From NCBI GenBank assembly GCA_001830425.1, contig MIAA01000050.1:546-49602 (forward strand): a stretch of 49,057 bases of DNA, in the 5' to 3' direction. Under the pieces are notes generated by a model, which made no database searches, was not told the DNA's origin, and worked only from the letters and a program-made list of their open reading frames with translations. Both the position numbers and the translations under genes were made by a program. Of the stretch, positions 7,988 through 36,761 are shown one piece after another. This DNA is from Rhodospirillales bacterium RIFCSPLOWO2_02_FULL_58_16. GTDB lineage: Bacteria; Pseudomonadota; Alphaproteobacteria; Rhodospirillales; 2-02-FULL-58-16. The stretch's first letter is position 1. Every line of letters begins with the position of its first letter.

Positions 7988-9376
7988 ATGACTAAAAAGA
8001 AACGCCTAAAGGTTCTCGTCTTTATTGACCATGACATCATTATCCGCCATTTCATAAAAAGCGGCGTTTTTTCCGAGCTGGCCGCCAAGCATGATGTCTT
8101 GTTCTGCCTTATTTCAGAGAATTATAAAAATGGGGCGCGCATCAGAACTCCGCTGGAATCGCTGGGACTGGGGGACAGGCTGCGGCGAATAGAAGTTGAT
8201 GACTATCGCCAGGGCAAATGGGCGAAACTGACCCATGTCAGCCGCTTGAAGTGGCGGCCCGGACAACATATGAGACACTTGCGCGACTTCACTCGGCATG
8301 CGATTGGGCCGGGGCATGTGCGGGAATACACCTTCCTGTCGCTACCCGGCGTTTATCATTGGTTTGAGCGCAAGACCTTGCGGGAGATTGTCGCCCACCC
8401 GAACACTCATCTTGAAAAGCTTTTTGATGAAGAACTTCCCGATGTCGTATTTCACCCATCGGTTCTTTACGGCCCGCTTATCCACGACCTTTGCTGCATC
8501 ACCGCTGAACGCCGCATTCCCATGACGGCAATTATGAATTCGTGGGATAATCCGGCCAGTAAGGCCAATATCTATTTGGCGCTTGACCGGTTGCTTGTCT
8601 GGGGTGAGCAAACCAGGGACCATGCGGTCAAGTATCTCAAAATTCACCCCTCTAACGTGACCATCTTCGGCGCTGCTCAGTTTGATGTCTACAGAAATCC
8701 GGCCCGTGTCACGAGAAGCGAATACGAACGCCTTCACGAGATTCCGTCCGGCAGCAAGATATTGCTTTACGCGGGCGCCAGTAAAGGCGCCGATGAGTTT
8801 GCGCACTTGTGCCTGTTGGATGAGGCGGTGGAGCGCGGCGACTTCGGGGAAAAGACTGCCGTTCTTTACCGTCCGCATCCTTGGGGAAACGGCGGTAAGG
8901 GAGGCAAAAGGATAATCGATCATCCATGGCGCAATGTTTTTCTGGAACTCGCCGGCAAACCTTATCTTGAATCGCTCAGGGAGGGAGATCAAGGAATCAC
9001 CCTTGCCGATTATAAGGACACAATCGATACATTAAGCAATGTTGACGCCGTTATTTCTCCGTTATCGACAATCATTCTGGAAGCGGCGATGCTGGGCAAA
9101 CCTTCCATATGTCTTCTGCCCTATGAGGAAGGCGCCGTTCATTTTAATCTGGCCGCCGGGTTGGCTCACTTTCAGGAAATATACGCATGGCCGGAATTCC
9201 TGAAGGCCCGAGGCGTTGATGAGTTAGTCCCGAAAGCTGTTGAATTGATGCAGCGTTCTCGCGATACGGTGCTATCGGCACGGCTGATTGAACTCAGTAA
9301 TTATTTTGCTCAACGGTTTGACGAGCCTTATGCAAGCCGTTTAGTGACTTACGCGGAATCTCTTTTCAGAGAATAA
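7988..9376 (+). CDS. GT-B transferase-like protein (CDP-glycerol glycerophosphotransferase-like)
   Basis: This 462-residue soluble protein has a GT-B layout. The N-terminal part (LKVLVFIDHD, then PDVVFHPSVLYGPL around 151-164) is followed by a C-terminal domain with KILLYAGASKG (257-267), VLYRPHPWG (292-300) and SPLSTIILEAAMLGKP (357-372). The HP pair and the serine-rich loop before the acidic residue resemble TagB/TagF-like enzymes and surface-carbohydrate transferases that use CDP- or UDP-activated donors. It is likely a glycosyl or polyol-phosphate transferase acting at the inner membrane. Donor and acceptor cannot be read from the sequence. A similar C-terminal pattern recurs in the proteins at 17969 and 19600. 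Confidence 0.6.
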   Translation: MTKKKRLKVLVFIDHDIIIRHFIKSGVFSELAAKHDVLFCLISENYKNGARIRTPLESLGLGDRLRRIEVDDYRQGKWAKLTHVSRLKWRPGQHMRHLRDFTRHAIGPGHVREYTFLSLPGVYHWFERKTLREIVAHPNTHLEKLFDEELPDVVFHPSVLYGPLIHDLCCITAERRIPMTAIMNSWDNPASKANIYLALDRLLVWGEQTRDHAVKYLKIHPSNVTIFGAAQFDVYRNPARVTRSEYERLHEIPSGSKILLYAGASKGADEFAHLCLLDEAVERGDFGEKTAVLYRPHPWGNGGKGGKRIIDHPWRNVFLELAGKPYLESLREGDQGITLADYKDTIDTLSNVDAVISPLSTIILEAAMLGKPSICLLPYEEGAVHFNLAAGLAHFQEIYAWPEFLKARGVDELVPKAVELMQRSRDTVLSARLIELSNYFAQRFDEPYASRLVTYAESLFRE

Positions 9377-9425
9377 TGACATCGTAGGATTCAAAGGCGT
9401 CGGGATAATCTGAGGGAATTTGACT

Positions 9426-10460
9426 ATGAAATTAACCGCTGACGACCCAAACGATCCGGCGTCCATAGTAAACGGCGCCGCCATTTTGATAACGGGAGGC
9501 ACCGGTTCGTTCGGACGCGCTTTCGTTGACAGGGTCGTGCGCGACTACAAACCTTCCCGTCTTGTTATCTTCTCTCGTGACGAGATGAAGCAGTACGAGA
9601 TGGCCCTTGATTTCAACGATGCCGATTATCCGTTCATCCGCTATTTCATCGGCGACGTGCGGGACGTGGAACGCCTGACCATGGCGATGCGGGGGATTGA
9701 TTACGTTATCCACTGCGCCGCGCTGAAGCATGTCACTGCGGCCGAATACAATCCCTTCGAGTGCATCAACACCAATGTGATCGGCGCCGAAAACGTCGTC
9801 AGGGCGGCGCTGAACTGCAAGGTCAAGAAGGTGCTTGCCCTGTCTACCGACAAGGCGGTGAATCCGATTAACCTTTACGGCGCCAGCAAACTGGCCGCCG
9901 ACAAGATATTCATCGCCGCCAACGCCTTGAGCGCCGGTATCGGCTCCCGGTTCTCCGTGGTGCGTTACGGCAACGTGTCAAATTCGCGCGGCAGCGTAGC
10001 GCCTATGTTTCGCCGTCTGATCAACGGCGGCGCGCAAAGTCTTCCGATTACCGATCCGCGCATGACGCGATTCTGGATCACCCTTGAGCACGGCGTCGAT
10101 TTTGTTTTGTCGAGTCTGGCGATGATGTGCCGGGGAGAAATTTTCGTGCCGAAAATTCCCAGTATTCACATTACCGATCTTGCGCGCTGCATGGCGCCGG
10201 ATTTGCCTCATAAAATTATAGGCATCCGCTCCGGCGAAAAACTGCATGAATCGCTGATTACGGAGGACGATGCGCGCAACACCCTGGAGCTTGACGACCG
10301 CTATGTAATCTTGCCGTTCAAGCGCACCGATATATCCGAGCGATTTGAGAGAGTGGGGGGCGTCCCGGTCGATGAGTCTTTTCAATATGTCAGCAATGCC
10401 AACAGCCGGTGGCTGGGGCCTGAGGAAATCAGGGCGACGTTGAAAGAAGGCCGGCACTGA
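9426..10460 (+). CDS. pseB: UDP-HexNAc 4,6-dehydratase / C5-epimerase, PseB-like
   Basis: This SDR-family enzyme should convert UDP-GlcNAc into a UDP-4-keto-6-deoxy-HexNAc with C5 inversion, the first step of pseudaminic-type sugars and of L-FucNAc. Motifs are TGGTGSFG (23-30), IHCAALKHV (95-103), STDKAVNP (140-147) and YGASK (151-155). The length (344) is in the PseB/FlaA1/CapE soluble range, without membrane segments. ATG at 9426 is chosen because GAGGG (9412-9416) sits 9 bases upstream; the TTG at 9420 would be too close. The one-base overlap with the next gene (TGATG) couples it to an RmlD-like reductase, as in the WbjB/WbjC (CapE/CapF) pair. The synthase, GNAT and cytidylyltransferase further on point instead to a nonulosonic acid. 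Confidence 0.88.
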   Translation: MKLTADDPNDPASIVNGAAILITGGTGSFGRAFVDRVVRDYKPSRLVIFSRDEMKQYEMALDFNDADYPFIRYFIGDVRDVERLTMAMRGIDYVIHCAALKHVTAAEYNPFECINTNVIGAENVVRAALNCKVKKVLALSTDKAVNPINLYGASKLAADKIFIAANALSAGIGSRFSVVRYGNVSNSRGSVAPMFRRLINGGAQSLPITDPRMTRFWITLEHGVDFVLSSLAMMCRGEIFVPKIPSIHITDLARCMAPDLPHKIIGIRSGEKLHESLITEDDARNTLELDDRYVILPFKRTDISERFERVGGVPVDESFQYVSNANSRWLGPEEIRATLKEGRH

Positions 10461-11314
10461 TGATACTGGTGCTGGGGGCCACCGGTATGCTGGGCCAGGC
10501 CCTGATGCGCGAGGCGTCAGGGCGGGGTATCAAAGCGGTAGGGGCGGCGCGCCATGACTCGGAAATAATACTGGACGCCGGTAATGAGGCGGCGCTGGGC
10601 GACGCCGTTATTCGCCTCAAGCCCGAACTGGTGATTAATGCGGCGGCGCTGACCGACATGGACGCTTGCGAGGCTGATCCCGGCGCGGCTTATCTTACGA
10701 ATGCCCGCCCCGCCGCTATACTGGCCGAGGCGTGCAGGCGATTGGAAATCGGCTTTGTGTATGTTTCCACCGACCATTATTACAGCGGCGACGGCGACAA
10801 TAAGCATGATGAGGAAATGCCGGTGCATCCGGTTAATGAATATGCCCGCTCCAAATACGCCGGCGAGGCGTTCGCTCTGACTTATCGGCGAAGTCTGGTC
10901 GTGCGGACCAACATTGTGGGCCGGCGGGGCTGGGTCGGACGCCCGACTTTTCTCGAATGGGCAATGGATTCACTTGAGCGACGCAAGCCGTTGCGTCTGT
11001 TTGATGATTTTTTCACCTCGCCTATTGATGTTGCCTCCTGCGCCAAGGCTATATTCGACTTGGTGGCCAAGGATGCGCGGGGCGTCATTAACGTGGCGGG
11101 GCGGGAAGTGTCCAGCAAGCGGCGGTTTGTCAGGGCTTTGGCGGATCAAATGGATATAATCCTCGATTGGGCGGAAACGGCCAGTGTGCGCGAATTGACT
11201 ACGCATCGGGCCGAAAGCCTGGGACTCGATGTAACGCGAGCGGAAAAGCTGTTGGGATATGCTATGCCTGATACCGCCCAAGTAGTGAGGTCGGCGCTTA
11301 AGGACGGGCTATGA
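10460..11314 (+). CDS. RmlD-like NAD(P)-dependent sugar reductase
   Basis: This 284-residue extended SDR shows LVLGATGMLGQ (3-13), INAAALTDMDACE (59-71), STDHYYSG (103-110) and the catalytic Tyr128-x3-Lys132. These are typical of dTDP-4-dehydrorhamnose reductases and of the CapF/WbjC reductase. It lacks the C-terminal cupin of CapF. Placed between PseB and NeuB, it probably reduces or rearranges the 4-keto sugar made by PseB. Such a step is absent from the textbook pseudaminate and legionaminate routes, so the pathway is a variant. It overlaps both neighbours (TGATG and ATGA). Confidence 0.75.
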   Translation: MILVLGATGMLGQALMREASGRGIKAVGAARHDSEIILDAGNEAALGDAVIRLKPELVINAAALTDMDACEADPGAAYLTNARPAAILAEACRRLEIGFVYVSTDHYYSGDGDNKHDEEMPVHPVNEYARSKYAGEAFALTYRRSLVVRTNIVGRRGWVGRPTFLEWAMDSLERRKPLRLFDDFFTSPIDVASCAKAIFDLVAKDARGVINVAGREVSSKRRFVRALADQMDIILDWAETASVRELTTHRAESLGLDVTRAEKLLGYAMPDTAQVVRSALKDGL

Positions 11315-12387
11315 GATACGACGGATCAATAATTATAGGCGGGCGGGAGATATCCATCGCTTCTCCCGCCTATTTTATTGCCGACATCGCCGCCAATCAC
11401 GATGGCGATTTTGAACGGGCCGAAACCCTCATCTATCTGGCTAAAGAAGCCGGGGCCGACGCTGTCAAGTTCCAGCATTTTCTGGCCGCCAAGATCGTCA
11501 GTGATCGGGGTTTTCGCGCTTTGGGCGGGCAGTCAGCTCATCAGGCCGAGTGGAAGAAGCCGGTTTATGAGATATACCGCCAATACGAATTCGATCGTAG
11601 CTGGAACGAGAAACTGGCCGCCGTCGCCAAAAAGGCGGAGGTCGAATTCATGACCACTCCCTACGATGTCGAGGCTGTCGAGGGAATTGACAGTCTGGTC
11701 GGGGCCTACAAGATCGGCTCGGGCGATATCACATGATTGCAATTTGTTTCTTTCTTGGCCGGAAAAGGAAAGCCGATCCTTCTGGCCACCGGGGCCGCCG
11801 ATATGGCCGACGTCGAGCGCTGCGTTGAGGCCGTTCTCGTTCGCACGCGCAAGATTGTTCTTATGCAGTGCAACACCAACTATACCGGCTCAATCGAAAA
11901 TTTCCGCTCGGTCAATCTCAATGTGTTGCGCAGTTTTGCTCTGCACTATCCCGGTATGGCGCTGGGGCTTTCCGATCACGCGCCGGGCCATGCCGCTGTA
12001 TTGGGAGCCGTGGCCCTGGGTGCGCGGGTAATCGAGAAGCATTTCACCGACGACAATGCCCGTGAAGGCCCCGACCATCGTTTTTCCATGACTCCCAAGT
12101 CGTGGCGCGAGATGGTTGATCGCACCCGTGAACTGGAGCCGGCCATGGGCGACGGGGTCAAGCGTGTAGAGGCCAACGAAGTCCAAGCCATCATCGTCCA
12201 GCGCCGCTGCTTAAGGCTGACCCGCAATTTAGAAACCGGAACGGTTTTGGCCGAAAGCGACCTTGAAGCGCTGCGTCCGGCCCCCGTAGGGTCTTACGAT
12301 CCCTATCGCCTTTCCGAGGTTGTGGGACGCCGCCTGATCCGTGCTAAAATAACCGGCGACGCCCTATACCCCGCAGACATGGAATAA
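11311..12387 (+). pseudogene. NeuB-family nonulosonic acid synthase (second copy) interrupted by in-frame TGA
   Basis: Both halves are in one frame and together make a full NeuB of 358 codons, interrupted only by TGA at 11734-11736 (codon 142). The first half (11311-11736) has FIADIAANHDGDFERA and GADAVKFQ and ends in YKIGSGDIT. The second half (11737-12387) resumes with FVSFLAGKGKPILLATGA, then LSDHAPGH, EKHFTDD and the C-terminal SAF domain. A single G-to-A change from TGG (Trp) would explain the stop; related NeuB proteins continue straight through here. TGA is an ordinary stop elsewhere in this window (for example at 11312-11314), so recoding is unlikely. It is either a very recent nonsense mutation or a sequencing error. 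A TTG directly after the TGA could allow restart, but the barrel would be split. Confidence 0.85.
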
Positions 12388-13743: not shown

Positions 13744-14925
13744 ATGAACGCCATTGTCAGACTGAAGCATTTTATCGCGAAATTGCCGATAGCAAATAAC
13801 ATTGCTTTGCGACGTAACTTTGACCGCATGCGCACCGGTTACCTTAATGATGTGTTTAGTGAATTGGAGAAGCATTTCACAGCAGAGCCGTTGGAGACAC
13901 TGAAGAAACCCCGCTCATCATTGATTGAGGTGACCAACAATTGCAATCTCAGATGTAAAATGTGCGGAACTCACAAGGCGACGCGCCGACGTGGGTACAT
14001 GTCTGAACAGACATTTGAGCGTGTTGTTTCCCAATGCGTCGAGAATGGGGGAAGAACAGGATTATTTACCGTTGGCGAAATATTTATGGTGCCTGAGAAA
14101 ACTCTGGATCGATTTATGGAGATTTGCAGAAAGTATAATTTTATTCCATTTATAAGCACCAATGCTCAATTCCCCCAGAGGTTAAAGCATATACTTGAAG
14201 AATTTCCTGATGTTGTCAGATATGTTGGTTTTTCTATTGATGGGGCGACAGAAAATACATATGAAAACATCCGGGTTAATGGAAAGTTTGATCGTGTAAT
14301 TGAGTCGCTTGATATTATGCGCCCATACTTGAAAAACGGCGTAGATCTCGGGATCAGGGCTGTGATTTCACTCGATAATATTCATGAAATCAGTGAAATT
14401 TTTAATCTCGGCAAAAGTTATATTAATCCGAAAAAAATTTCTTTTAATATTGTTAACAGCTTGGCTCCTGATGATATTTATTTTAACAATACTATTTTGC
14501 CTTACAAGAATATTTACAAGTCTCAGGCGCCGTGCAGTCTTCCGTTTTCAGACATATATTTTACTTATGATGGTCAAGCTACGCTGTGCTGCCGTGATTA
14601 TGAGGCGGAATTATCAATCGGGGACATCCATAAACATTCTCTTATCGATCTTTTTACCAATGAAAAAGCAAAAGCGATACGAGCGCAGCACCTTAACCCG
14701 CACAGTCTGAATATTAAACTTTGCAGTAATTGTTTCGGCGCTCTGCGTTTTGTCGGTACGGCGTTTAATTCCTATATTCATCTCTGTATGAATGCTCACC
14801 GGAATATGTCAGGCGATGAATTGCAGAGCCGTATCGAGAAATTATTGCACGACGTAGATACAGCCATCCCTCATGGTCCTTCAGTAATCAAGGCTGCCTT
14901 ATTAAGTTGTTTTAGCGACATCTGA
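13744..14925 (+). CDS. Radical SAM/SPASM-type protein
   Basis: This 393-residue protein has the radical SAM cluster motif NNCNLRCKMC (Cys67, Cys71, Cys74). It also has a SPASM-like C-terminal cluster region with Cys264, Cys282-Cys283, Cys327 and Cys330, in the usual order (APCSLPFSDIYFTYDGQATL, then CC, then CSNC). Such proteins bind one catalytic and at least one auxiliary iron-sulfur cluster; members in glycan loci act in sugar or cofactor modification. The gene is visibly more AT-rich than its neighbours, with many ATT, AAA and TTT codons, pointing to recent transfer. It lies between a pseF remnant and the intact pseF. The substrate is unknown. The start at 13744 has no convincing Shine-Dalgarno site. 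Confidence 0.8.
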   Translation: MNAIVRLKHFIAKLPIANNIALRRNFDRMRTGYLNDVFSELEKHFTAEPLETLKKPRSSLIEVTNNCNLRCKMCGTHKATRRRGYMSEQTFERVVSQCVENGGRTGLFTVGEIFMVPEKTLDRFMEICRKYNFIPFISTNAQFPQRLKHILEEFPDVVRYVGFSIDGATENTYENIRVNGKFDRVIESLDIMRPYLKNGVDLGIRAVISLDNIHEISEIFNLGKSYINPKKISFNIVNSLAPDDIYFNNTILPYKNIYKSQAPCSLPFSDIYFTYDGQATLCCRDYEAELSIGDIHKHSLIDLFTNEKAKAIRAQHLNPHSLNIKLCSNCFGALRFVGTAFNSYIHLCMNAHRNMSGDELQSRIEKLLHDVDTAIPHGPSVIKAALLSCFSDI

Positions 14926-17968: not shown

Positions 17969-19000
17969 ATGGCCAGGTTCATGTTCGCGGCCCATGACAT
18001 CGGCGGCGCCAATATGCTGGCGCCGGTGATGCCTTTGGCGATAAGGGCAGGGCACGAGGTTTTTCCCTTTGCCGACGGCCCGGCGCTTGCCGCCTGGCGC
18101 GGCATGACGGCAAAGGATTGCGATAAACTCACATCGTTGGCCTCGGCTGTCGGGGAAACAGCTCCTGACCTGATCATCACCGGCACAAGCCGCGCTTCGG
18201 AAATGGAGCGCAGCCTGTGGCGAATTGGCATTGAGCGCGGCGTTACCACCATCGCCGTCATCGATTCATGGGTTAATTTCCATAACCGATTCATTGATGC
18301 CTCCGGCGCGGAGATTCTTCCCGACGCGATCTGCGTCATTGACGAATGGTGTCGGCGGCGGATCGAAGCGGAGGGGTGGTGCGGGGCGCGCATTCACGTT
18401 GTCGGCCACCCTCACCTGCAAGAGCGTTTGGGCCGCACGACGGCGTTGCGTAAGGGACGAACACGGGCGGAAACTCCCCGGCTGACATTCTTTTCTGAAC
18501 CGATCCGCGAGGTCATGGGGTTTGCCAAGGACCAGTTCTGGGCTGCCGGTGAAATGGTTCGCGCATTGGGCGGGATCGGGCCGGCCTGTTTTACGGTCAA
18601 ACCTCATCCGACGGAAAAGGCTGAAACATGGCGGCGGTGGCGCGATCATTTCAAGAATGTAAAACATGTGGAGATCGAGATCGCCGGCGAAGACGATGCC
18701 GAGGCGCTTTTCATAAAATCGGATGTGGTGACCGGCATTCACAGCATAGCCCTGATCGAGGCGAATTTTCTCGGCATTCCCGTAATCACCATGCAGCCTG
18801 ACGGGCCGGCCGGGGGCAACCCCAGACTCGATACATTGCCCGGCGTGACGGTGGCGTCAAATCAAGACGAGCTTGGCCGGGCGCTGAAGAGCGCCCTGGC
18901 CGGCGGCGATATCCGGCCCGACGCCGGCGTCGTTTATGAAGTGGTGAACAACGCCGGCGCACGGTTATTATCGGCGATTGAGAAGGAAAATGACGCATAG
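17969..19000 (+). CDS. GT-B-fold protein, possible UDP-sugar hydrolase/transferase of the second nonulosonate set
   Basis: This 343-residue protein begins MARFMFAAHDIGGANMLAPV and has LIITGTSRASEMERS, HVVGHPHLQERLG, TVKPHPTEKAE and a C-terminal GIHSIALIEANFLGIPVITM loop. The pattern resembles GT-B enzymes such as UDP-sugar 2-epimerases, PseG hydrolases and wall-polymer transferases. The set lacks a recognisable PseG, the enzyme that frees the sugar from UDP before condensation, so this protein could fill that place. It could equally be a transferase. It lies 9 bases after the aminotransferase and overlaps the next GNAT gene by 11 nt. Confidence 0.5.
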   Translation: MARFMFAAHDIGGANMLAPVMPLAIRAGHEVFPFADGPALAAWRGMTAKDCDKLTSLASAVGETAPDLIITGTSRASEMERSLWRIGIERGVTTIAVIDSWVNFHNRFIDASGAEILPDAICVIDEWCRRRIEAEGWCGARIHVVGHPHLQERLGRTTALRKGRTRAETPRLTFFSEPIREVMGFAKDQFWAAGEMVRALGGIGPACFTVKPHPTEKAETWRRWRDHFKNVKHVEIEIAGEDDAEALFIKSDVVTGIHSIALIEANFLGIPVITMQPDGPAGGNPRLDTLPGVTVASNQDELGRALKSALAGGDIRPDAGVVYEVVNNAGARLLSAIEKENDA

Positions 19001-23210: not shown

Positions 23211-24944
23211 TCAGCATCTGGAGCCGACCTGCTTCAACCGCTCCTTAATGGAAGGGGCGTCGGCCGGCGCCGGAAGAATACGGCTGAAGTTGGTGCGTAT
23301 CTCGCTAACGCCTTGCCAATGAATGGCGTGAGCGCCGGAAGATGCGGTTATCTTATCGGTGATGACAAGTCGGCGGCCTTCCCTGGCGACCAGAACAAGG
23401 CTATCCGGCGGGATGATGGGGTGGTCGGGGGTAAATTTGCTTAGCGGCGTTGTCAGTCCTTCGTCGGTGACGGTCGAAAAGTAGCTTTCGTTGTTGCCGC
23501 TCTGCAAAAGCGGTTCGGAGTGATAGGCGTAAATATGTTCCCGGCCCATCATTTCGGGCGTCGTATACAACATCTGCATAAACACCATCAGACTATCTGA
23601 GCCGTCGAAAACAGGAACGATTCCTACGTTATGACGGAGGTCGGTAAACAGAAATGTCGTATTGCCGGAAACGTAGGGAACTTGTTCCACAAAACCTTTC
23701 CACATGTCGCAGTGGATATCTGCCGCCGTTTCCCAGTCATGGCGCAGGCCAACCCAGAATGCCACCCAAACGCCGGCTAATGCCACCACTCCGATCCTTA
23801 GCAAAGTCTGGAAAAAACGTTTTTTAAAGAGCGTCGGGATCAATGCCATCAGCACGGCGATCCCATATCCACTACTGGAAAAAATACGGGGGGCGCCGAT
23901 ATCCCATGAAACCGAAGGTGCATAATTTCCGGCCATTAGATATGGCGTGATCCCGAGGACAAACAAAGCGGCGCCGAGACCCGAGAGGCACCATCCGCCT
24001 TGCAGGAATCGGTTTATGCCGAATGCCGTATCCTCGGTGTAATCAGGAAGGCCGAGCAACAAACTGCCGCTTAATGCCGTGAACGCCGCGCCGAAGGCCA
24101 TGGCCGGCCGATCAAGGGAAAATAATCCATGGAACGGCGCGACAAGGTATCCACCGGTGTTCCATAAGGAGGCGGCAATGGCGTCAGCCTTGGGTAATCC
24201 TTTAATGGTGCTGGCGACATCCCCGAATTGAAGGCCGTATCTAAGGCCCAGGACAACAAGGAACGCTAGGAAAACGGCGACGCCCAGTTTGACAACCGAT
24301 GTGGTGAATTGCTCACCAAGCTTCCCGGCGCATCTTTCGGCCAATATTGGGATCACGAAAAAAGGGGCGGCAAAAATGAAAAGGACGGCATTTTCGTAGA
24401 CGGTAAATGATAAAATATAGGGTACGCATGAAACCGCCAGAACAAGCAATGAAGCATTATGCTTGGCCCAAGTTTGTAGCGAATAAATTGAAATCCAGAA
24501 AAGAAGCAAAGAAAGAGGGGCCGTATTCATTGCGTAGTAGTTCATCGCCATGGGCATAGGCATTGTGAAAGCCAACATGGCGGCGGCGGCGGCGAAGAAG
24601 GGACGCTGCGGGAACGCCCTTAGCAGACAAAGCCCGAACATAATTGAAGAAATTACATGAAGAAAAATTACAGCAAGAAAGAAAGCTATTCTATTAAATC
24701 CAAAAGTTTTAAAAACAATAATCCAAAATAATTCACGTCCTATTCGCTGTTTTCTATTAATAGCTCCAATAATGCTGTCAATAAAATCATTGAAAAATGG
24801 TATTCTTAAGTACTCGTACTCCGGCCCGGAGAATTGCAGATTCTTTATCAATCCGGCGAGGGAAAGGCCGGTCAGCAAAAAGACTGCGCCAAGCAGTGCG
24901 AGAGGAAGGCTCGGCGATTTCGGTAGTTTTTTCAGGAGATTCAT
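23211..24944 (-). CDS. Polytopic membrane protein, GT-C-like
   Basis: This 577-residue protein has roughly ten hydrophobic segments covering residues 13 to about 410, and a soluble C-terminal domain of about 160 residues. A long loop after the first segment (GPEYEYLRIPFFNDFIDSI) and scattered acidic residues in early loops fit GT-C transferases that use polyprenyl-linked sugars at the periplasmic face, such as GtrII-like glucosyltransferases. The family cannot be named with confidence. It is one of only two minus-strand genes and sits inside the plus-strand block. Its 5' part is AT-rich, so it may have been inserted. A TATAAT hexamer (24968-24973, minus) lies upstream. Confidence 0.55.
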   Translation of the reverse strand: MNLLKKLPKSPSLPLALLGAVFLLTGLSLAGLIKNLQFSGPEYEYLRIPFFNDFIDSIIGAINRKQRIGRELFWIIVFKTFGFNRIAFFLAVIFLHVISSIMFGLCLLRAFPQRPFFAAAAAMLAFTMPMPMAMNYYAMNTAPLSLLLFWISIYSLQTWAKHNASLLVLAVSCVPYILSFTVYENAVLFIFAAPFFVIPILAERCAGKLGEQFTTSVVKLGVAVFLAFLVVLGLRYGLQFGDVASTIKGLPKADAIAASLWNTGGYLVAPFHGLFSLDRPAMAFGAAFTALSGSLLLGLPDYTEDTAFGINRFLQGGWCLSGLGAALFVLGITPYLMAGNYAPSVSWDIGAPRIFSSSGYGIAVLMALIPTLFKKRFFQTLLRIGVVALAGVWVAFWVGLRHDWETAADIHCDMWKGFVEQVPYVSGNTTFLFTDLRHNVGIVPVFDGSDSLMVFMQMLYTTPEMMGREHIYAYHSEPLLQSGNNESYFSTVTDEGLTTPLSKFTPDHPIIPPDSLVLVAREGRRLVITDKITASSGAHAIHWQGVSEIRTNFSRILPAPADAPSIKERLKQVGSRC

Positions 24945-25043: not shown

Positions 25044-25763
25044 ATGACTGATCTCAGCATTGTCCTGCCCGCTTATAACGAGCGCGAAAACATTGTTGCG
25101 TTGGTGGAGCGACTGCTTCAAGTCATGGATGGGGTTGTAAAGGGGCTGGAAATTATCGTCATTGACGATAACAGCCCGGACGGCACGGCCGAGGCTGTGC
25201 GTCGAGTCTTCTCCGGAGACCACCGCGTTCAGGTCGTCGTCCGCACCGAGAATAGAGGGCTGGCCAATTCCATTCGCGTCGGCATTGAAAAATCCGCCGG
25301 CGAAGTTGTCGTGGTTATGGATACGGATTTCAACCACCCGCCTGAATGTGTGCCGATTCTTTATGACTTTACCCGCCACGCCGACTTGGTGATCGGGTCA
25401 AGATTTACCTTCGGCGGCGGGACCAGTTCAAGCCGGTTACGTTACTATCTCAGCTACTGTTATAACCTTTTTATGCGTCTGGTTCTCGGCACCCGCATCG
25501 ACGATAACTTGGGCGGCCTGTTTTCAATAAAGCGCGAGGCCTTGGAGAAACTGGACTTTGACAAGATTTTTTGGGGCTATGGCGATTATTTTTTTCGTCT
25601 GCTGCTTCTCTCCCAACGTCTCGGCTTGCGCCATGTTCAGATTCCCGTGATGTATGGAAACCGTTTAGGAGGGGAGCCTAAAACAAGGTTTCTTAACATT
25701 TTTGCCAAGTATACAATGGAGGTTTTCAGGATCATCTATCTCAGGGCGACGGGACGATGGTAG
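25044..25763 (+). CDS. GT2 glycosyltransferase, dolichol-phosphate-mannose-synthase-like
   Basis: This 239-residue GT-A transferase has LSIVLPAYNERENI (4-17), the donor-binding IVIDDNSPDGTAEA (37-50) and the metal-binding VVMDTDFNHPPE segment, followed by the DNLGGLFSIKREAL region. There are no C-terminal membrane segments, so it is a short DPM1/GT2-type enzyme. By family, it loads a sugar on polyprenyl phosphate for use by GT-C enzymes, and the divergent neighbour at 23211 could be such a partner. It overlaps the adenylation gene by 7 nt. Confidence 0.82.
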   Translation: MTDLSIVLPAYNERENIVALVERLLQVMDGVVKGLEIIVIDDNSPDGTAEAVRRVFSGDHRVQVVVRTENRGLANSIRVGIEKSAGEVVVVMDTDFNHPPECVPILYDFTRHADLVIGSRFTFGGGTSSSRLRYYLSYCYNLFMRLVLGTRIDDNLGGLFSIKREALEKLDFDKIFWGYGDYFFRLLLLSQRLGLRHVQIPVMYGNRLGGEPKTRFLNIFAKYTMEVFRIIYLRATGRW

Positions 25764-27382
25764 ATTCGCCGACGTCAATACCGGCCTCGAAAGAGGAACG
25801 TAATCGCGCATCGAACCTTGCCGATCAGTTTCTATTAACATCAGAGCGCTTCAGCCGACGACTTGCCTTGTGGGCCGAGGAAGGAACTTATTCTTACGGC
25901 GACCTGCAAAAAGCCGCCTTGGGAATAGCGCACGTTTTGAGTCTAAACGCCCGGACAACCCCGCAAAATTGCGCCATTCTTGCACATCGAAGCCGGACGG
26001 CCTATGCAGGTATTGCCGGGTGCTTGCTTTCCGGCCATGCCTACATAGCTCTAAGCCCGAAGCATCCTATACACAGGCTTGAAACGATTCTTGATCAGTC
26101 CGAAGCCACATCTATCGTTATAGACGGCAAATGTTCCTCTATGGCGCATTTGTTGCTTGAGCGGTGCAGGAATTCGATGCGCGTCCTGATGCCCGATCAC
26201 AATGATGCCCCGGAGTGGACGCGCCGGTGTCCCCGCCACCGTTTTTATTACCGTTCGGACTTTTTAAACCAGGGTGAATTAAAGCCGACGGCGCAATCAT
26301 CGGATACCGCTTATATCATGTTTACATCCGGATCGACGGGTGTGCCGAAGGGGGTTGTTATCAGTCACGCCAATGTCATGGCTTATTCTCAAGCTATGAT
26401 TGAGCGGTATGGGTATTGTTCGGATGATCGCCTGATTCATTTGCCTGAACTCAGTTTTGATCTGTCCGTCCACGACTTGTTTGTCGCCTGGGCAAGCGGC
26501 GCGTCATTGTTCAGCGTTCCGGAGCGGGAATTGATGTTGCCGGATGATTTTGTTCGCCGACACGCATTAACCGGATGGACCTCCGTACCCTCGGCTGTGG
26601 CCTATTTGAAGCAATTCAATAAATTGAAGCCGGGCTGTTTTGAAGGACTACGGGTCAGCGTCTTTTGCGGCGAGCCTTTTTCGGGACAGTTGGCTTCAGA
26701 CTGGTGCGCCGCCGCGCCGAATGCCGTTGTCGATAATCTTTATGGCCCGACTGAAGCGACCGTCGCCTTTACAGGCTATTCATGCAGCAATGGCGTCGAC
26801 TTCTCTATCTTGCCGCTTGGCGAACCTTTTCCGGGCCTGGAAGTCGCCGTTTGCGATGAAACGCCGACACCTGTGCCGCCCGGTGAGATAGGCGAATTGT
26901 TTTTGGGCGGCATCCAGGTCGCTCAGGGTTATTGGCAAGATGACGAGATGACAAAAAGGCAGTTTATTGAACGAACTTTTTCAGGCAAAGTTTCCGAACG
27001 CTGGTATCGTACGGGTGACTTGGTCAGCTACGACGCCCGCGTCGGCTTGATTTACAAAGGACGCCTGACGCGCCAGGTGAAGATTCGAGGCTATCGCGTA
27101 GAGCTGACTGAAATCGAGGCTGTTCTGCGTCGTAATTTGAAGACGGAGTTTACGGCGGTAATTCCCTGCATGAATGAAAGCAAGACGGCTGATTATCTTG
27201 TCGCCTATGTAGAAACCGTTGATGATTTCATTGAGGATGATGTTAAAGGCGCATGTGAGGCTGATTTGCCGTCTTATATGATTCCGCGCCGCCTGTTTCG
27301 GCTGAACAAGATGCCGTTGACCGAGAATGGTAAAACTAACTATGAAACGCTTGAAGCGATGTTTCGTGAGATGGCGCCATGA
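25757..27382 (+). CDS. Stand-alone amino acid adenylation enzyme (NRPS A-domain / DltA-like)
   Basis: This enzyme activates an amino acid as aminoacyl-AMP and loads it on a carrier protein. The 541 residues show core motifs in order: A3 YIMFTSGSTGVPKGV (186-200), A4 FDLSVHD (234-240), A5 NLYGPTEAT (327-335), A7 YRTGDL (417-422), A8 KIRGYRVELTEIE (442-454) and the A10 lysine in LTENGKTNYE. Asp235 in A4 is the residue that binds the alpha-amino group in amino-acid-specific A domains, so the substrate is probably an amino acid and not a fatty or aryl acid. The specific residue cannot be read. Four-base overlap with the carrier protein gene supports a dedicated pair. Confidence 0.85.
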   Translation: MVDSPTSIPASKEERNRASNLADQFLLTSERFSRRLALWAEEGTYSYGDLQKAALGIAHVLSLNARTTPQNCAILAHRSRTAYAGIAGCLLSGHAYIALSPKHPIHRLETILDQSEATSIVIDGKCSSMAHLLLERCRNSMRVLMPDHNDAPEWTRRCPRHRFYYRSDFLNQGELKPTAQSSDTAYIMFTSGSTGVPKGVVISHANVMAYSQAMIERYGYCSDDRLIHLPELSFDLSVHDLFVAWASGASLFSVPERELMLPDDFVRRHALTGWTSVPSAVAYLKQFNKLKPGCFEGLRVSVFCGEPFSGQLASDWCAAAPNAVVDNLYGPTEATVAFTGYSCSNGVDFSILPLGEPFPGLEVAVCDETPTPVPPGEIGELFLGGIQVAQGYWQDDEMTKRQFIERTFSGKVSERWYRTGDLVSYDARVGLIYKGRLTRQVKIRGYRVELTEIEAVLRRNLKTEFTAVIPCMNESKTADYLVAYVETVDDFIEDDVKGACEADLPSYMIPRRLFRLNKMPLTENGKTNYETLEAMFREMAP

Positions 27383-27621
27383 CTCAAGACGAGGTCTGTG
27401 AAGCCATAATCGGGTATATGCGTTCCGCCGTAGGAAGCTCACGGTCTCAGTCTATTACGCCATCGACCAGGATTTACGATGCTATCGATTCATACGCCAT
27501 CGTAGAATTGGTATCTCACCTGACGGTGACATTAGGCAAGGAAATCGATTTCGGTGAAGCGACTACCGATGATTTGGAGACTCCTGAGTCATTTTCCAGG
27601 TTTGTCGCCGGGTTAGGGTAA
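27379..27621 (+). CDS. Acyl/peptidyl carrier protein
   Basis: This 80-residue carrier protein has the phosphopantetheine attachment serine at position 38, in DAIDSYAIVELV, with the typical acidic helix II and hydrophobic spacing. It should carry the amino acid activated by the enzyme upstream as a thioester on the 4'-phosphopantetheine arm. It overlaps the adenylation gene (ATGA) and the formyltransferase gene (TAATG), so the three are translationally linked. A phosphopantetheinyl transferase is not in the window and must come from elsewhere. Confidence 0.85.
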   Translation: MTQDEVCEAIIGYMRSAVGSSRSQSITPSTRIYDAIDSYAIVELVSHLTVTLGKEIDFGEATTDDLETPESFSRFVAGLG

Positions 27622-28529
27622 TGGTTTCGTTTCTTGTCGTCGGCGAAGGATTCCCTGCCTTTAATGTTCTTAACTTTTTACTTTCCAAGTCGAATGCGAG
27701 GGTTGCGGGCTACGTTGCCGGATCACATGCTTCCGTTAAAGCCATAGAGTTGGCAAAGTGCAGGAATGTAGAGCTGCTTGATCCGGCGATACTGACCGGA
27801 GCGGCCTTTTTTCCCTCTGTAGCGGATGCGGATTGGCTCATAAATATCAATGGCGTTACGTTAATTTCCAAGGAAGTTATCGCCCGCTTTCCAATGCGGG
27901 CCTTGAACATGCATCCTGCTCTTCTGCCGAACTACGCCGGTCTTCATTGTCATCAATGGGCAATCCGTAATGGCGAGCGGTTGCATGGAGCCACCATTCA
28001 TTTCATGGATTCCGATATCGACGCCGGACCGATCATCCGGCAGGTGCGAACGGCAATTCAAGATGAGGATACCGGCCTTTCTCTTTTTATGAGAACCATG
28101 AATATCGGCGCCGAATGCCTTTTGTATGTTCTGGACGATATTTTGAAAGGAACCGCTCTTTCATGTCGATCACAGGATATTTCACAAAGGCGCGTTTATT
28201 TTCATCGACACGCTCTTGATGGAACAATCGACTGGTCTTGGCCGGCGGAGAAACTTATTAATTTCGTGCGCGCCGCAAATTATGAACCCTTGGCATCGCC
28301 AACCTACCAACCGCTTTGGAGAAGCCTGAATGGTGACATTATTATCAAAAAGCTTAGACGTGGAGAAGTGATCAGTTCTGAAGCCCCCGGAAAGATTGTC
28401 GATGTCTGTGAAACAGGGCCTGTTATTTCGTGTGGGTCCGGCGAAACTGTTGTAATTACCAAGGCATTTCACATGGGGAAACCGGTGCCGCCATCGGATT
28501 GGAATCGATTCTTAATTAACGCGGGATGA
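27621..28529 (+). CDS. Formyltransferase (10-formyl-THF dependent, Fmt-like)
   Basis: This 302-residue protein has the formyltransferase N-terminal fold with catalytic Asn96 and His98 in LNMHPALLPNYAGLH, and Asp134 in FMDSDIDAGPII, the N-H-D triad of the family. Residues about 205-300 resemble the Fmt C-terminal domain. It should transfer a formyl group from N10-formyltetrahydrofolate to an amine. The housekeeping initiator-tRNA enzyme is unlikely in this context. The immediate neighbours (adenylation enzyme, carrier protein) suggest the amine is that of the carrier-bound amino acid, as in the LgrA start module. Direct formylation of an amino sugar, as by WbkC or VioF, is the alternative. Confidence 0.85.
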   Translation: MVSFLVVGEGFPAFNVLNFLLSKSNARVAGYVAGSHASVKAIELAKCRNVELLDPAILTGAAFFPSVADADWLININGVTLISKEVIARFPMRALNMHPALLPNYAGLHCHQWAIRNGERLHGATIHFMDSDIDAGPIIRQVRTAIQDEDTGLSLFMRTMNIGAECLLYVLDDILKGTALSCRSQDISQRRVYFHRHALDGTIDWSWPAEKLINFVRAANYEPLASPTYQPLWRSLNGDIIIKKLRRGEVISSEAPGKIVDVCETGPVISCGSGETVVITKAFHMGKPVPPSDWNRFLINAG

Positions 28530-28530
28530 T

Positions 28531-29127
28531 GTGCTGATTCGATCTCTGACCGTAGGTGATATTCCCGCCATGGCGGAGCTTCACGCTCACGCCTTGAATT
28601 GGTCGATCAACGGCCGCATGGGAATCAAGCATCTTTCGTGCGTGTATGCGCTTCTTTTGGACGGCGCCGATATTATAGGCTTCGCCTCTGAGCATCAGGG
28701 GCGTCTTGTCGCATTTCAAGTCAGCACGACCGATTGGCGAATGGTGCGTAAACGGTTATCAAGACTTCCATTTATGCGAAAACTGCGCGTATTTTTAAGC
28801 TGCCTCTTTCATCCATCGGATTTGATCGTTATTTTTGAGACAATGTTTTATGTCCCCAAAATTTTCTCCGATACCGATATTTCAGCAGAACTCATTGCGT
28901 GGATCGCCGAGCCGGGAAATTTTTTAGCCAGCCTGTCGGCGCATCAATGCCTGATGAGATCGCTTGCAGAATTGAAAGTGCGCGGCCATGAACGTTGTCT
29001 GGGTCAATTTCAAAAGCCTAATCCACGACCACAGGCATACCTTCAAAAGCTTGGTTATGATGTTGTCGCCCGGCTGAGGCGTAATGATATTTTTATTGTT
29101 CGTTGCAACGCCGGCGCCATCGTCTGA
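28531..29127 (+). CDS. GNAT-like acyltransferase
   Basis: This 198-residue protein starts at GTG 28531, one base after the formyltransferase stop. The N-terminus LIRSLTVGDIPAMAELHAHA is typical of GNAT folds, and the C-terminal QAYLQKLGYDVVARLRRND segment matches the last GNAT strands. The centre is divergent and hydrophobic (LRVFLSCLFHPSDLIVIF), without a clear RxxGxG/A acetyl-CoA loop. A ligand other than acetyl-CoA is therefore plausible. Given the upstream carrier protein, it could transfer a (formyl)aminoacyl group from the carrier to an amino sugar. This role is inferred from context. Confidence 0.6.
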   Translation: MLIRSLTVGDIPAMAELHAHALNWSINGRMGIKHLSCVYALLLDGADIIGFASEHQGRLVAFQVSTTDWRMVRKRLSRLPFMRKLRVFLSCLFHPSDLIVIFETMFYVPKIFSDTDISAELIAWIAEPGNFLASLSAHQCLMRSLAELKVRGHERCLGQFQKPNPRPQAYLQKLGYDVVARLRRNDIFIVRCNAGAIV

Positions 29128-29174
29128 CAATAAGGTTTAGTGTTTTGTCCGGGAACTAAAGTGAGGCATAGGCG

Positions 29175-30269
29175 TTGAAAATCGAAATCCCGTGGGCCAA
29201 GCCGACCTTCTTCGGGAACGAGAAGGATTATGTGATGGACGCCCTGAACTCCACCTGGATTTCCGGCGGGCCTTATGTCGAGCGTTTGGAGTGTAAGTTA
29301 CCCGAAATAATGGGGTCTCGCTTCGGCGTCGCCGTTTCCAGCGGCACGACGGCTTTGCATCTGGCGCTGCTTGCCGCCGGCGTCGGTTCCGGCGATGAGG
29401 TGATCGTTCCCGGCTACACCTTTGTCGCCGCCGCCAACATGGTGCTGGCGGTGGGGGCGACGCCGGTTTACGCCGACGTAGATCCCGCCACTTGGCTGCT
29501 TGACCCCAAAGTTCCGGCGCCGCTGATTACGGCAAAAACCAAGGCGATCATTCCGGTTCATCTGTACGGCAATGTCGCCGCCATGAAGGAGATTACCGCC
29601 TTCGCCGAAGAACAAAATATCATCGTTATCGAAGACGCCGCTCAGGCCGTTTTTTCCAAATACGATGGTCGTTACGCCGGCGCCATCGGCGCTCTCGGCG
29701 CCCTGAGCTTCCACGCGACCAAGACCATAACCACCGGAGAGGGCGGAATGGTGCTGACCAATGACCGGGAACTGCATGAAAAAATGATGCTGTTGCGTGA
29801 CCACGGTATGCGCAGGGGAAAACGCTACTGGCATGACGTGGTAGGATACAATTTCAGGATGACCAACCTGCAAGCGGCCCTAGGCTGCGCCCAGTTGGAA
29901 AATATTGATCACATTCTCCGTGAGCGTCACCGGGTTCATACTGCTTATAAAAAGAATCTGGCCGGAGATCGCCGGATAAAGGCGCAGCATTTTGAACGGG
30001 CGGTGGAACCTGTGCTGTGGACCTATGCCGTTCAGATGAACTGTGCGGATCGTGATCAAATCATTAAGGATATGGCTCTGAAAGGCATAGAAACCCGTCC
30101 GGGTTTTCATGCTTTGAGCGCCATGCCTCCCTATGATTGTCCCGAACTTCCGGTTGCATCGAAAATCGCCGGCAGTATCATTTCCTTGCCGACCTATCCT
30201 GACCTTGACGACCGCACCATTGATCACATCTGCGGCGTTTTCCGATCCGCCCTCGACCGACAGAAGTGA
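29175..30269 (+). CDS. DegT-family aminotransferase, GDP-perosamine-synthase-like
   Basis: This PLP enzyme makes 4-amino sugars. It begins IPWAKPTFFGNEKDYVMDAL with STWISGGPYVERLE close behind, a beginning characteristic of perosamine synthases (RfbE/Per). It also has SSGTTALHLALLAAGVGSGD (55-74), the PLP-ring Asp154 in VIEDAAQA, and Lys183 in SFHATKTITTGEGG. The length (364) is normal. The start is TTG with GTGAGG 8 bases upstream. The likely substrate is GDP-4-keto-6-deoxymannose, which the Gmd-like enzyme at 47443-48432 would supply. Next to the adenylation/formyl/acyl cassette it would create the amine that is acylated. Another 4-keto sugar nucleotide is possible. Confidence 0.85.
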   Translation: MKIEIPWAKPTFFGNEKDYVMDALNSTWISGGPYVERLECKLPEIMGSRFGVAVSSGTTALHLALLAAGVGSGDEVIVPGYTFVAAANMVLAVGATPVYADVDPATWLLDPKVPAPLITAKTKAIIPVHLYGNVAAMKEITAFAEEQNIIVIEDAAQAVFSKYDGRYAGAIGALGALSFHATKTITTGEGGMVLTNDRELHEKMMLLRDHGMRRGKRYWHDVVGYNFRMTNLQAALGCAQLENIDHILRERHRVHTAYKKNLAGDRRIKAQHFERAVEPVLWTYAVQMNCADRDQIIKDMALKGIETRPGFHALSAMPPYDCPELPVASKIAGSIISLPTYPDLDDRTIDHICGVFRSALDRQK

Positions 30270-34378: not shown

Positions 34379-35133
34379 GACGCCTTATCGGCGGCTTTCT
34401 CGGGTTTTTCCTCTCGACTCTGCCTGCCGCCCAACTCCAGACCCTGATCGCCGATCTGGTCAACCGACGGACAATGAAGATGGCGCCGGATGAAGGCTTG
34501 CGTTTCCTGTTCCGCCTTGATGGAGTCTTGTACAATCTGGCCGGACGGCTGGCCGAACGTTATGGAGAAGGGGTGCATGTTAAACACCGCCTTACCCGTT
34601 ACCACGATTTTTTTGTTGATCGTCTTGACCGGGCCGAGCGTGTTCTGGAGATAGGGTGCGGCGCCGGTAATTTGGCCCATGATGTGGCGATGCGCGCCGG
34701 ATGCTCCGTTACCGCCCTGGAAATAGATAGTGGAAAAATTGATATCGCCAAGAGTCGCTTTCCCGACTCTCCCGTTTTATGGTTGGTGGGAGACGCCGTG
34801 CAAAACCTTCCGGGGGAGAGGTTTGACGTGGTGATCATGTCCAACCTGCTTGAGCACTTGACCGAAAGAATCCGCTTCCTCAGCCGCGTTGCAGACGTTA
34901 CCGGCGCCGAACGCTTTCTTCTCAGGGTTCCTCTGTTCGAGCGTGACTGGCGGGTTCCCTTGAAGAAGGAACTGGGCGTGGAATGGCGATTAGACCCTAC
35001 TCATGAAACGGAATATACGTTGGAATCTTTCGCCGAAGAGATGGCCGAGGCCGGCCTTGCGATCATCCATCAGGAAGTCCGCTGGGGTGAGATATGGGCG
35101 GAAGCAACTCCGATAAAGCAAGGAAGTCATTAA
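34366..35133 (+). CDS. SAM-dependent methyltransferase (paralogue 1)
   Basis: ATG at 34366 is chosen over the TTG at 34336 because the product then begins MRRLRRL, like the paralogue at 46706 (MRKFCKAL). The 255 residues include KHRLTRYHDFFVDRL, SAM loop VLEIGCGAGNLAHD, VVIMSNLLEHLTER and LLRVPLFERDWRVPLKKELG near the end. The HDFFVD and VPLFER(D/H)W segments are shared with 46706-47461, pointing to duplication. It overlaps the upstream GT4 gene by 13 nt and the carbamoyltransferase by 1 nt. The substrate is probably a glycan sugar. Confidence 0.78.
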   Translation: MRRLRRLIGGFLGFFLSTLPAAQLQTLIADLVNRRTMKMAPDEGLRFLFRLDGVLYNLAGRLAERYGEGVHVKHRLTRYHDFFVDRLDRAERVLEIGCGAGNLAHDVAMRAGCSVTALEIDSGKIDIAKSRFPDSPVLWLVGDAVQNLPGERFDVVIMSNLLEHLTERIRFLSRVADVTGAERFLLRVPLFERDWRVPLKKELGVEWRLDPTHETEYTLESFAEEMAEAGLAIIHQEVRWGEIWAEATPIKQGSH

Positions 35134-36761
35134 TGTACGTTCTCGGCGTCGGCGGCTATATGCATGACTATAATTGCTGTCTGATCGACGTCGGCGGCAA
35201 GCGCGTCGCCATGGCCGAGGCCGAGCGGTTCTCCAGGAGCAAACACCATGTGGTGCGCGGGGAAGCCGAGGTCATGGCGCCGGTTCGCGTGGTCTGCGAC
35301 AGCCTCGGCATCAATCCGCGAAAGATCGACGTGGTGGTTCACGGCCATGCCGATCCCTTCCAGGTCAAGGAATGGCTGAAAAATGAATTGCCCAAGGCCA
35401 GGCATGTAGAGGTTGATCATCATCTCTGCCATGCCGCCGGAGCCTTCTACTCATCCGCTTATGACAAGGCGCTGATTGTTTCCATCGACGGTTTCGGCGA
35501 CGGCTCTTCCGGGGTCATCGCCTCCGGCGACGGCATGAATATAAGCGAGGTGACCAGGATCAGCGACGCCGACAGCATCGGCCTTGAATACCTGCGGGCG
35601 ACCTATCACCTCGGCCTCGGCGGCTACGGGGCGGAGGGCAAGACCCAGGGGCTGGCCCCCTATGGGGAGCCGACGGTGTTTGACGACTATATGAATGAAA
35701 TCCGGGTGACTGCCGATGGAAACATTATTCTTTCCGACCGGCTCAAGAGTCAGAGTTCCACTCTCGCCGTTGAAGGCGGCTACCTCAACACCCAAATTCT
35801 CACCAACCGCTTCCTTGATGATTACGGACCCAGGCGCATAACGCCCGAACCGTTGACCAAGGATCACAACAATCTGGCGGCAAGCGTGCAGAAGATGCTG
35901 GAGCATGTAATCGGCGAAGTTTGCCTTAACGGCAAAAGTAAAACCGGCCACGATGCTCTGGTCGTGTCGGGGGGGGTGATGATGAACTCATCGCTGAACG
36001 GTCGCCTTCTTGAAAGCGGCGCCTTCAAGGGCATCTACGCCCTGCCCATGGCGTCCGACAGGGGGATCGGGTTGGGCGCGGCCCTTTATTATGTACATGC
36101 CGAGATCAAGGTTCCCCGGTTCTTTGAACTGGATACGGTATTTTTCGGCGGAACCTGTTCCGACAAGGCCGCCGCCAAGGCGATGAAAAAAGCCGGGATC
36201 AGGCCTTTCGTCGTCGACGATATTCATGGTTACGCCGCAGAGGCTCTCAGCGAGGGAAAGATCATCGGCTGGGTTCAGGGACGTTCCGAGATGGGGGCCA
36301 GGGCATTGGGTCATCGCAGTATTTTGGCCGATCCCGGGAAGGCCGAAATGAAGGACATCATTAATCAAAGGGTCAAGCACCGGGAATGGTTCCGCCCCTT
36401 CGCCCCGGCGGTATTGGCCGAGAAAGCCGAAGATTATTTCGATTTTCCCGAAGGCGTCGCCGACCTGTCGTTCATGACCTTCACCGTTAAGGCCAAGGAC
36501 AAGGCTGTTGATGACGCCGCCGCCGCTATTCATGTCGATAAAACGGCGCGGGTGCAGACCGTAGATGAGGAGCGCAACCCGGATTTACACAAACTCATCA
36601 GCCGTTTTGATAAGCTGACCGGCGTTCCCATACTGCTCAACACCAGCTTCAACGATAATAATGAACCTATCGTTGAAACCGAGGCGGATGCGGTAAAGAC
36701 GTTCATGAAGACCGACATGGACGTGCTTTGCATAGGCAACGTGGTCGGGGTCAAGAACTGA
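35133..36761 (+). CDS. Carbamoyltransferase (NodU/CmcH family)
   Basis: It transfers a carbamoyl group from carbamoyl phosphate, via carbamoyl-AMP, to a hydroxyl of a sugar. The 542-residue product has the N-terminal ASKHA-like domain with VDHHLCHAAGAFYSSAY (metal-binding histidines) and SIDGFGDGSSG, then SGGVMMNSSLNG. The C-terminal carbamoyltransferase domain has WVQGRSEMGARALGHRSIL and LLNTSFNDNNEPIVET. ATG at 35133 follows AAGGA by 8 bases; the upstream in-frame extension to 35094 lies inside the previous gene. Homologues carbamoylate Nod factors, antibiotics and O-antigen sugars. Confidence 0.9.
   Translation: MYVLGVGGYMHDYNCCLIDVGGKRVAMAEAERFSRSKHHVVRGEAEVMAPVRVVCDSLGINPRKIDVVVHGHADPFQVKEWLKNELPKARHVEVDHHLCHAAGAFYSSAYDKALIVSIDGFGDGSSGVIASGDGMNISEVTRISDADSIGLEYLRATYHLGLGGYGAEGKTQGLAPYGEPTVFDDYMNEIRVTADGNIILSDRLKSQSSTLAVEGGYLNTQILTNRFLDDYGPRRITPEPLTKDHNNLAASVQKMLEHVIGEVCLNGKSKTGHDALVVSGGVMMNSSLNGRLLESGAFKGIYALPMASDRGIGLGAALYYVHAEIKVPRFFELDTVFFGGTCSDKAAAKAMKKAGIRPFVVDDIHGYAAEALSEGKIIGWVQGRSEMGARALGHRSILADPGKAEMKDIINQRVKHREWFRPFAPAVLAEKAEDYFDFPEGVADLSFMTFTVKAKDKAVDDAAAAIHVDKTARVQTVDEERNPDLHKLISRFDKLTGVPILLNTSFNDNNEPIVETEADAVKTFMKTDMDVLCIGNVVGVKN

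Follow-up and report, generated by a model that had tools for sequence, protein, structure and literature searches.

A split adenylation, carrier and formyltransferase cassette in a surface-glycan locus of a Rhodospirillales bacterium, with a proposed role in N-formyl-aminoacylation of an amino sugar

Analysis of a 49,057-nucleotide stretch of contig MIAA01000050.1 (positions 546 to 49,602, forward strand; hereafter the window) from Rhodospirillales bacterium RIFCSPLOWO2_02_FULL_58_16 (assembly GCA_001830425.1, 2.73 Mb in 53 contigs) identified a run of tightly packed genes that may direct the transfer of a formylated amino acid to an amino sugar. All on the + strand, they encode a stand-alone amino-acid adenylation (A) enzyme of 541 amino acids (aa) (25757-27382), a carrier protein of 80 aa (27379-27621), a formyltransferase (FT) of 302 aa (27621-28529), a GNAT-like protein of 198 aa from a rare family, proposed to be an acyltransferase (28531-29127), and a DegT/PerA-type sugar aminotransferase of 364 aa (29175-30269). 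An earlier note on this DNA had described these five open reading frames (ORFs) as tightly packed, and this was found to be so: the A gene shares 4 bases with the carrier gene and the carrier gene 1 base with the FT gene, the FT and GNAT-like genes are 1 base apart, and the aminotransferase gene, with the start codon TTG, follows 47 bases further on. The note had left out a GT2 glycosyltransferase gene (25044-25763, +; 239 aa; PF00535, 112 bits) that is packed just as tightly. It is probably the first gene of the run, shares 7 bases with the A gene and brings the number of genes in the run to six. Its product showed weak likeness to ArnC-like and other glycosyltransferases, in all cases far under the NCBIfam cut-offs.

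The run lies within a large surface-glycan locus, which includes glycosyltransferases, an O-antigen-ligase-type protein, NeuB- and PseB-type genes, methyltransferases and a gene for GDP-mannose 4,6-dehydratase (Gmd; 47443-48432, - strand).

The A enzyme matched PF00501 (211 bits) and TIGR01733 (331 bits, over the cut-off of 317). All core motifs tested were present, including Asp235 in FDLSVHD and the A10 lysine at position 526 (Lys517-type), and the A domain is intact; the note had described it as an amino-acid A domain with Asp235 in A4. It scored under the cut-offs for DltA (TIGR01734, 259 versus 560 bits; NF003417, 269 versus 476 bits). The pocket code extracted from its sequence was DLHTVCLVA-K. 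In a search with the pocket segment the top solved match was 4oxi, titled as an EntF-related protein in the PDB copy used, which we take to be AlmE with glycyl-AMP; DltA (3dhv) was placed lower. AlmE uses glycine (PMC12930378). The pocket code, together with the closeness to AlmE (glycine) and DltA (D-alanine), points to a small amino acid as the predicted substrate, most likely glycine, with alanine as the second candidate.

The carrier protein is divergent, matching PF00550 with 14.8 bits, under the gathering cut-off of 20.8. Ser38, the residue named in the earlier note, sits in a DS motif and is kept in two further homologous carriers. A search of the genome for the phosphopantetheinyl transferase (PPTase) family yielded one gene, with a reading frame of 155 codons, although a divergent PPTase could escape this search; this single gene would have to serve the window carrier.

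The FT matched PF00551 (88.5 bits) and PF02911 (39.4 bits). The residues Asn96, His98 and Asp134, given in the note as intact in an Fmt-like enzyme, were all invariant in an alignment with its nearest relative, from genome G311. The genome contains four PF00551 genes, the window FT among them; one of the other three groups with Fmt, so that the window FT is dispensable as the housekeeping Fmt, and the remaining two form a separate pair in the tree, which we took for PurN and PurU types. An FT search of the genome_contigs collection gave five matches, and none of these five loci contained counterparts of the window A, carrier or GNAT-like genes. One of the five, L007, was read in detail and rejected as an ordinary Fmt.

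A tree of 27 FT sequences, two of them outgroup, placed Fmt, ArnA, siderophore and sugar FTs, with the single exception of the sugar FT from L039, in one clade (96/96 support). All carrier-linked FTs fell outside this clade, among them the window FT, which lay near the formylation (F) domains of peptide synthetases; a single clade of carrier-linked FTs was not supported. When the window FT was constrained, in a smaller tree, to group with five sugar FTs, the constraint was rejected (p-AU, the P value of the approximately unbiased test, 0.019); the test is weak because these five do not form a clade of their own. It was noticed afterwards that the position of His109 holds His or Asn in 12 of 12 carrier-linked FTs and in none of the 12 from the 96/96 clade; His is also found in L001, one of the two outgroup sequences. 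The tree and the genomic linkage to A and carrier genes support a window FT that would formylate a carrier-bound aminoacyl group, a step that is fairly likely.

The aminotransferase (PF01041, 377 bits) had been called a perosamine-type enzyme, in agreement with its top solved relatives, which are the perosamine synthases 3bn1, 3dr4 and 3dr7 (309-312 bits; the next match scored 238). By these closest DegT relatives it is a predicted GDP-perosamine synthase. The proposed identity of Gmd was likewise borne out by comparison with solved structures, where GDP-mannose 4,6-dehydratases scored 225-284 bits; a reductase scored 82, and the possibility that the enzyme is a reductase was dismissed. Its TIGR01472 score of 324 bits is under the cut-off of 415. 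Gmd may possibly supply GDP-4-keto-6-deoxymannose, and the presence of a PerA-type enzyme in the run points to 4-amino-6-deoxymannose (perosamine) as the probable acceptor.

The gene at 28531-29127 had been assigned to the GNAT family, and this assignment fared less well. No Pfam family match of note and no PDB match at E<=10 were obtained, comparison of its profile with those of two GNATs of the window gave no significant match, and the single-sequence AlphaFold model was unreliable, with a predicted local distance difference test (pLDDT) score of 37. The absence of an obvious acetyl-CoA loop, noted previously, was confirmed: the motif [RQ]xxGx[GA] was not found in the protein. A loose GNAT-like stretch, judged by eye, remains in the C-terminal part, and GNAT is a plausible label for a putative family member.

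Homologues of the GNAT-like protein were searched for in order, class and phylum samples of 297, 385 and 398 genomes, which partly overlap, in a sample of relatives, and in plasmids and viral contigs. Nothing was found in the plasmids and viral contigs, and in the other samples the sole clear homologue besides the window protein was in genome G354 (28% identity, E 2.9e-30); weaker matches were read as chance. The G354 gene adjoins a fusion of a YdjC-type deacetylase and an FT in a glycan-type locus, which also encodes a carrier-like protein, read by eye without a Pfam match, and two adenylate-forming enzymes. Since the ligase most like the window A enzyme has Val at the position of Asp235, it was rejected as an amino-acid enzyme and the locus was considered related to, and not the same as, the window system. 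The pairing of the homologue with a deacetylase-FT fusion and a ligase lacking Asp235 indicates that the GNAT-like gene also associates with partners other than an A, carrier and FT set. In the same genome, the region L031 4066-7066, with a carrier-like protein, an SDR-like protein, the second adenylate-forming enzyme and a protein of 201 aa that bears a faint resemblance to the GNAT-like protein of the window, suggests another carrier-based acylation set.

A search for the same gene order in other genomes had been proposed in the earlier note, and this was successful for part of the run only. The core of A, carrier and FT genes recurred as discrete genes in four further loci, two from the same taxonomic order as the window, one from the same class and one from an Agrobacterium plasmid; the window GNAT-like protein had its homologue only in G354, where the trio is absent. 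FT-A-PCP (PCP, peptidyl carrier protein) arrangements fused in single proteins were found in G915 and in two plasmid proteins. In strict searches with the FT profile, the three matches obtained in addition to the two seeds, in G915, G025 and G004, all had A and carrier functions adjacent or fused. The genome samples are finite, and these counts are no estimate of prevalence.

The gene content around the core differs among the loci. In G025 (L078; same order, glycan locus) an Antibiotic_NAT acyltransferase is followed by carrier, A and FT genes, with 39% identity between the A enzyme and that of the window, and next to the cassette are a DegT-like aminotransferase and another FT, of the sugar type. 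The carrier-linked and sugar-type FTs of this locus lie end to end on opposite strands (8837-10628), a natural comparison for FT specificity. In G004 (L079; same order, glycan locus) the genes are a hexapeptide acyltransferase, A, FT and carrier, followed by the PseB-like, DegT and NeuB genes of an adjoining pseudaminate-type pathway. A protein next to this cassette (L079 4898-6520) shares 36% identity with the product of 35094-36761 (+) in the window, which, by eye, looks like a carbamoyltransferase. In G311 (L038; same class) the order is deacetylase, carrier, FT, methyltransferase, double-GNAT-like protein (with sub-threshold Pfam matches only) and A. The plasmid of Agrobacterium salinitolerans (L067) carries A, carrier and FT in the gene order of the window, plus a PPTase. 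Three of the five discrete cassettes, that of the window included, are located among glycan genes.

The pocket code DLHFLCLIA-K was shared by three of the other cassette A enzymes and one further plasmid A enzyme, and the G004 cassette enzyme had DLFCTCQCA-K. On a Solidesulfovibrio plasmid (L030 8025-11596), an A enzyme with DLHFLCLIA-K, a carrier and an Antibiotic_NAT gene occur without an FT, possibly an uncapped version of the cassette. Four other loci, L062 (siderophore) and L061, L070 and L071 (plain sugar-FT), were set aside as having no discrete A-carrier-FT set.

We propose that the A enzyme adenylates glycine or, as second choice, alanine and loads it onto the phosphopantetheine arm of the carrier. 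The separate FT would then cap the carrier-bound amine with 10-formyl-tetrahydrofolate as donor, and the GNAT-like protein would pass the capped aminoacyl group on to the 4-amine that the PerA-like aminotransferase installs. The acceptor would probably be GDP-perosamine derived via Gmd and the product would be used in the surface glycan of the locus. On balance, we regard it as probable, by a modest degree, that the cassette makes an N-formyl-aminoacyl-carrier by separate proteins and then hands the acyl group to an amino sugar. The first part, formation of the formyl-aminoacyl-carrier, is fairly likely: the earlier suggestion that F, A and PCP functions act jointly on a carrier-bound amino acid gained support from the discrete sets at four other loci and the fused proteins at several more. 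The further parts of that suggestion, transfer from the carrier by a GNAT to GDP-perosamine, stay putative. A sugar acceptor is supported indirectly by the perosamine-synthase-like gene in the run, by Gmd in the window and by an N-acyltransferase-type gene at three other chromosomal loci.

Several observations weigh against this proposal. The GNAT-like protein has an unproven fold and its only homologue occurs in a locus without the A, carrier and FT trio. By simple similarity, the top solved relatives of the FT include sugar FTs (ArnA and GDP-perosamine FT) and Fmt, above LgrA. L039 is a gmd/perosamine locus that lacks A and carrier genes, and its FT, which has a long branch, is placed in the tree among the carrier-linked enzymes and has Asn at the His109 position. 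Gmd is 17 kb from the cassette and on the opposite strand, the cassettes share little identity with one another (about 28-39%), and no obvious glycan locus surrounds the Agrobacterium plasmid cassette.

In an alternative that we consider unlikely, the run encodes two separate modifications: the FT would formylate GDP-perosamine directly, as WbkC-type enzymes do, and the A, carrier and GNAT-like proteins would attach an amino acid without a cap to some other acceptor, in the manner of AlmEFG or Dlt. It agrees with the presence of ArnA and GDP-perosamine FT among the top solved relatives of the FT, with the PerA-type aminotransferase within the same run, and with a gmd/perA/FT locus in G508 that lacks A and carrier genes and whose FT groups near that of the window. 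It is opposed by G311 and the Agrobacterium plasmid, where A, carrier and FT occur with no PerA-type gene nearby, by the fusion of the three in one protein elsewhere, by the position of the window FT outside the main sugar-FT clade, and by the rejected grouping with the five sugar FTs, with the reservation on that test given above.

It is quite unlikely, in our estimation, that the formyl-aminoacyl-carrier is made but its acceptor is something other than perosamine, such as a lipid, a small molecule or a different sugar amine belonging to the locus, for instance one from the nonulosonic-acid pathway. NeuB-, NeuC- and PseB-type genes are present in the window, the G004 cassette stands beside PseB-like, DegT and NeuB-type genes, and G311 has a deacetylase in place of the aminotransferase, all of which would suit such an acceptor; against it stand the position of the PerA-type aminotransferase, immediately after the cassette, and the large margin by which perosamine synthases lead among the solved relatives of that enzyme. 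That the genes are a split starter module for a peptide natural product, unconnected with the glycan, is very improbable: F domains are known in starter modules of non-ribosomal peptide synthetases (NRPS) (PMC8949500) and the Agrobacterium plasmid trio has a PPTase, an acyl-CoA dehydrogenase and a condensation-domain gene in its vicinity, but no condensation domain was found in Pfam scans of the window proteins, the PPTase family search of the genome gave a single gene, and most discrete cassettes have a glycan setting.

The cassette proposed to formylate and transfer an amino acid shares features with several known systems. The three functions are those of the F-A-PCP initiation module of LgrA (linear gramicidin), the window differing in having three separate ORFs, in the order A-PCP-F, and no condensation domain. 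Stand-alone A enzyme, discrete carrier and transferase are found together in AlmE, AlmF and AlmG, which attach glycine to Vibrio cholerae lipid A, and the AlmE structure is the nearest solved match to the window pocket segment; AlmG is a member of a different transferase family. AlmEFG also differ in having no FT and in using an acyl chain of lipid A as acceptor (PMC12930378), in place of a sugar amine. DltA and DltC are similar in the full length of the A enzyme and in the small pocket, and differ in that the window enzyme is far under the DltA cut-offs and in the proposed formyl cap and sugar amine acceptor. WbkC-type GDP-perosamine N-formyltransferases and ArnA share with the window FT the fold family, the catalytic triad and, nearby, a perosamine-type aminotransferase, whereas the window FT has A and carrier genes as neighbours in its run and does not fall in the clade that unites ArnA with most sugar FTs.

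Some other features of the window were observed. The product of 5955-7106 (+), within a group of nonulosonic-acid genes, is near UDP-sulfoquinovose synthase (479 bits versus a cut-off of 575). A second NeuB-type gene (11302-12387, +) has an in-frame stop just before 11737, with the N-terminal half in the upstream frame and the C-terminal half in the listed ORF, which may be due to decay or to an assembly error. The radical SAM/SPASM gene at 13744-14925 (+) has a GC content of 0.41, versus about 0.5-0.6 nearby, and was possibly acquired. Four proteins of 282-577 aa (7132-7980, 7988-9376, 17969-19000 and 23211-24944) had no Pfam match at the thresholds used.

The predicted class of product is chemically known: N-acetylated aminoacyl amino sugars (N-acetyl-D-alanyl, N-acetylglycyl) occur in bacterial polysaccharides (PMC3210612), and an N-formyl-L-alanyl group was reported for V. 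anguillarum O2 (PMC10059132). Formylation by NRPS F domains follows loading on the T (thiolation) domain, and carrier-dependent formylation is described for only three NRPS products according to one review (PMC8949500). Neither a gene set for formylated aminoacyl sugars nor a split formyl-aminoacyl set for glycans was found in the open-licence papers searched. Each part of the cassette is known, and a split formyl-aminoacyl set serving a glycan would be a new combination of them.

The acyltransferases beside the other chromosomal sets are mutually unrelated (AAC(3)-type in G025, hexapeptide in G004, double GNAT in G311), and a different type at each locus fits a core reused with different acceptors. 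We tentatively suggest, with doubt slightly outweighing belief, that a mobile A, carrier and FT core, combined with varied N-acyltransferases (GNAT-like, AAC(3)-like or hexapeptide) and amino sugars, puts formyl-amino acids on the surface sugars of different bacteria. The separate small proteins allow a direct assay of aminoacyl-carrier formylation. If the proposed pathway is true, carrier-dependent formylation would extend from peptide synthesis to glycans, and the split F, A and carrier set would serve as a genome marker for formyl-aminoacyl glycans.

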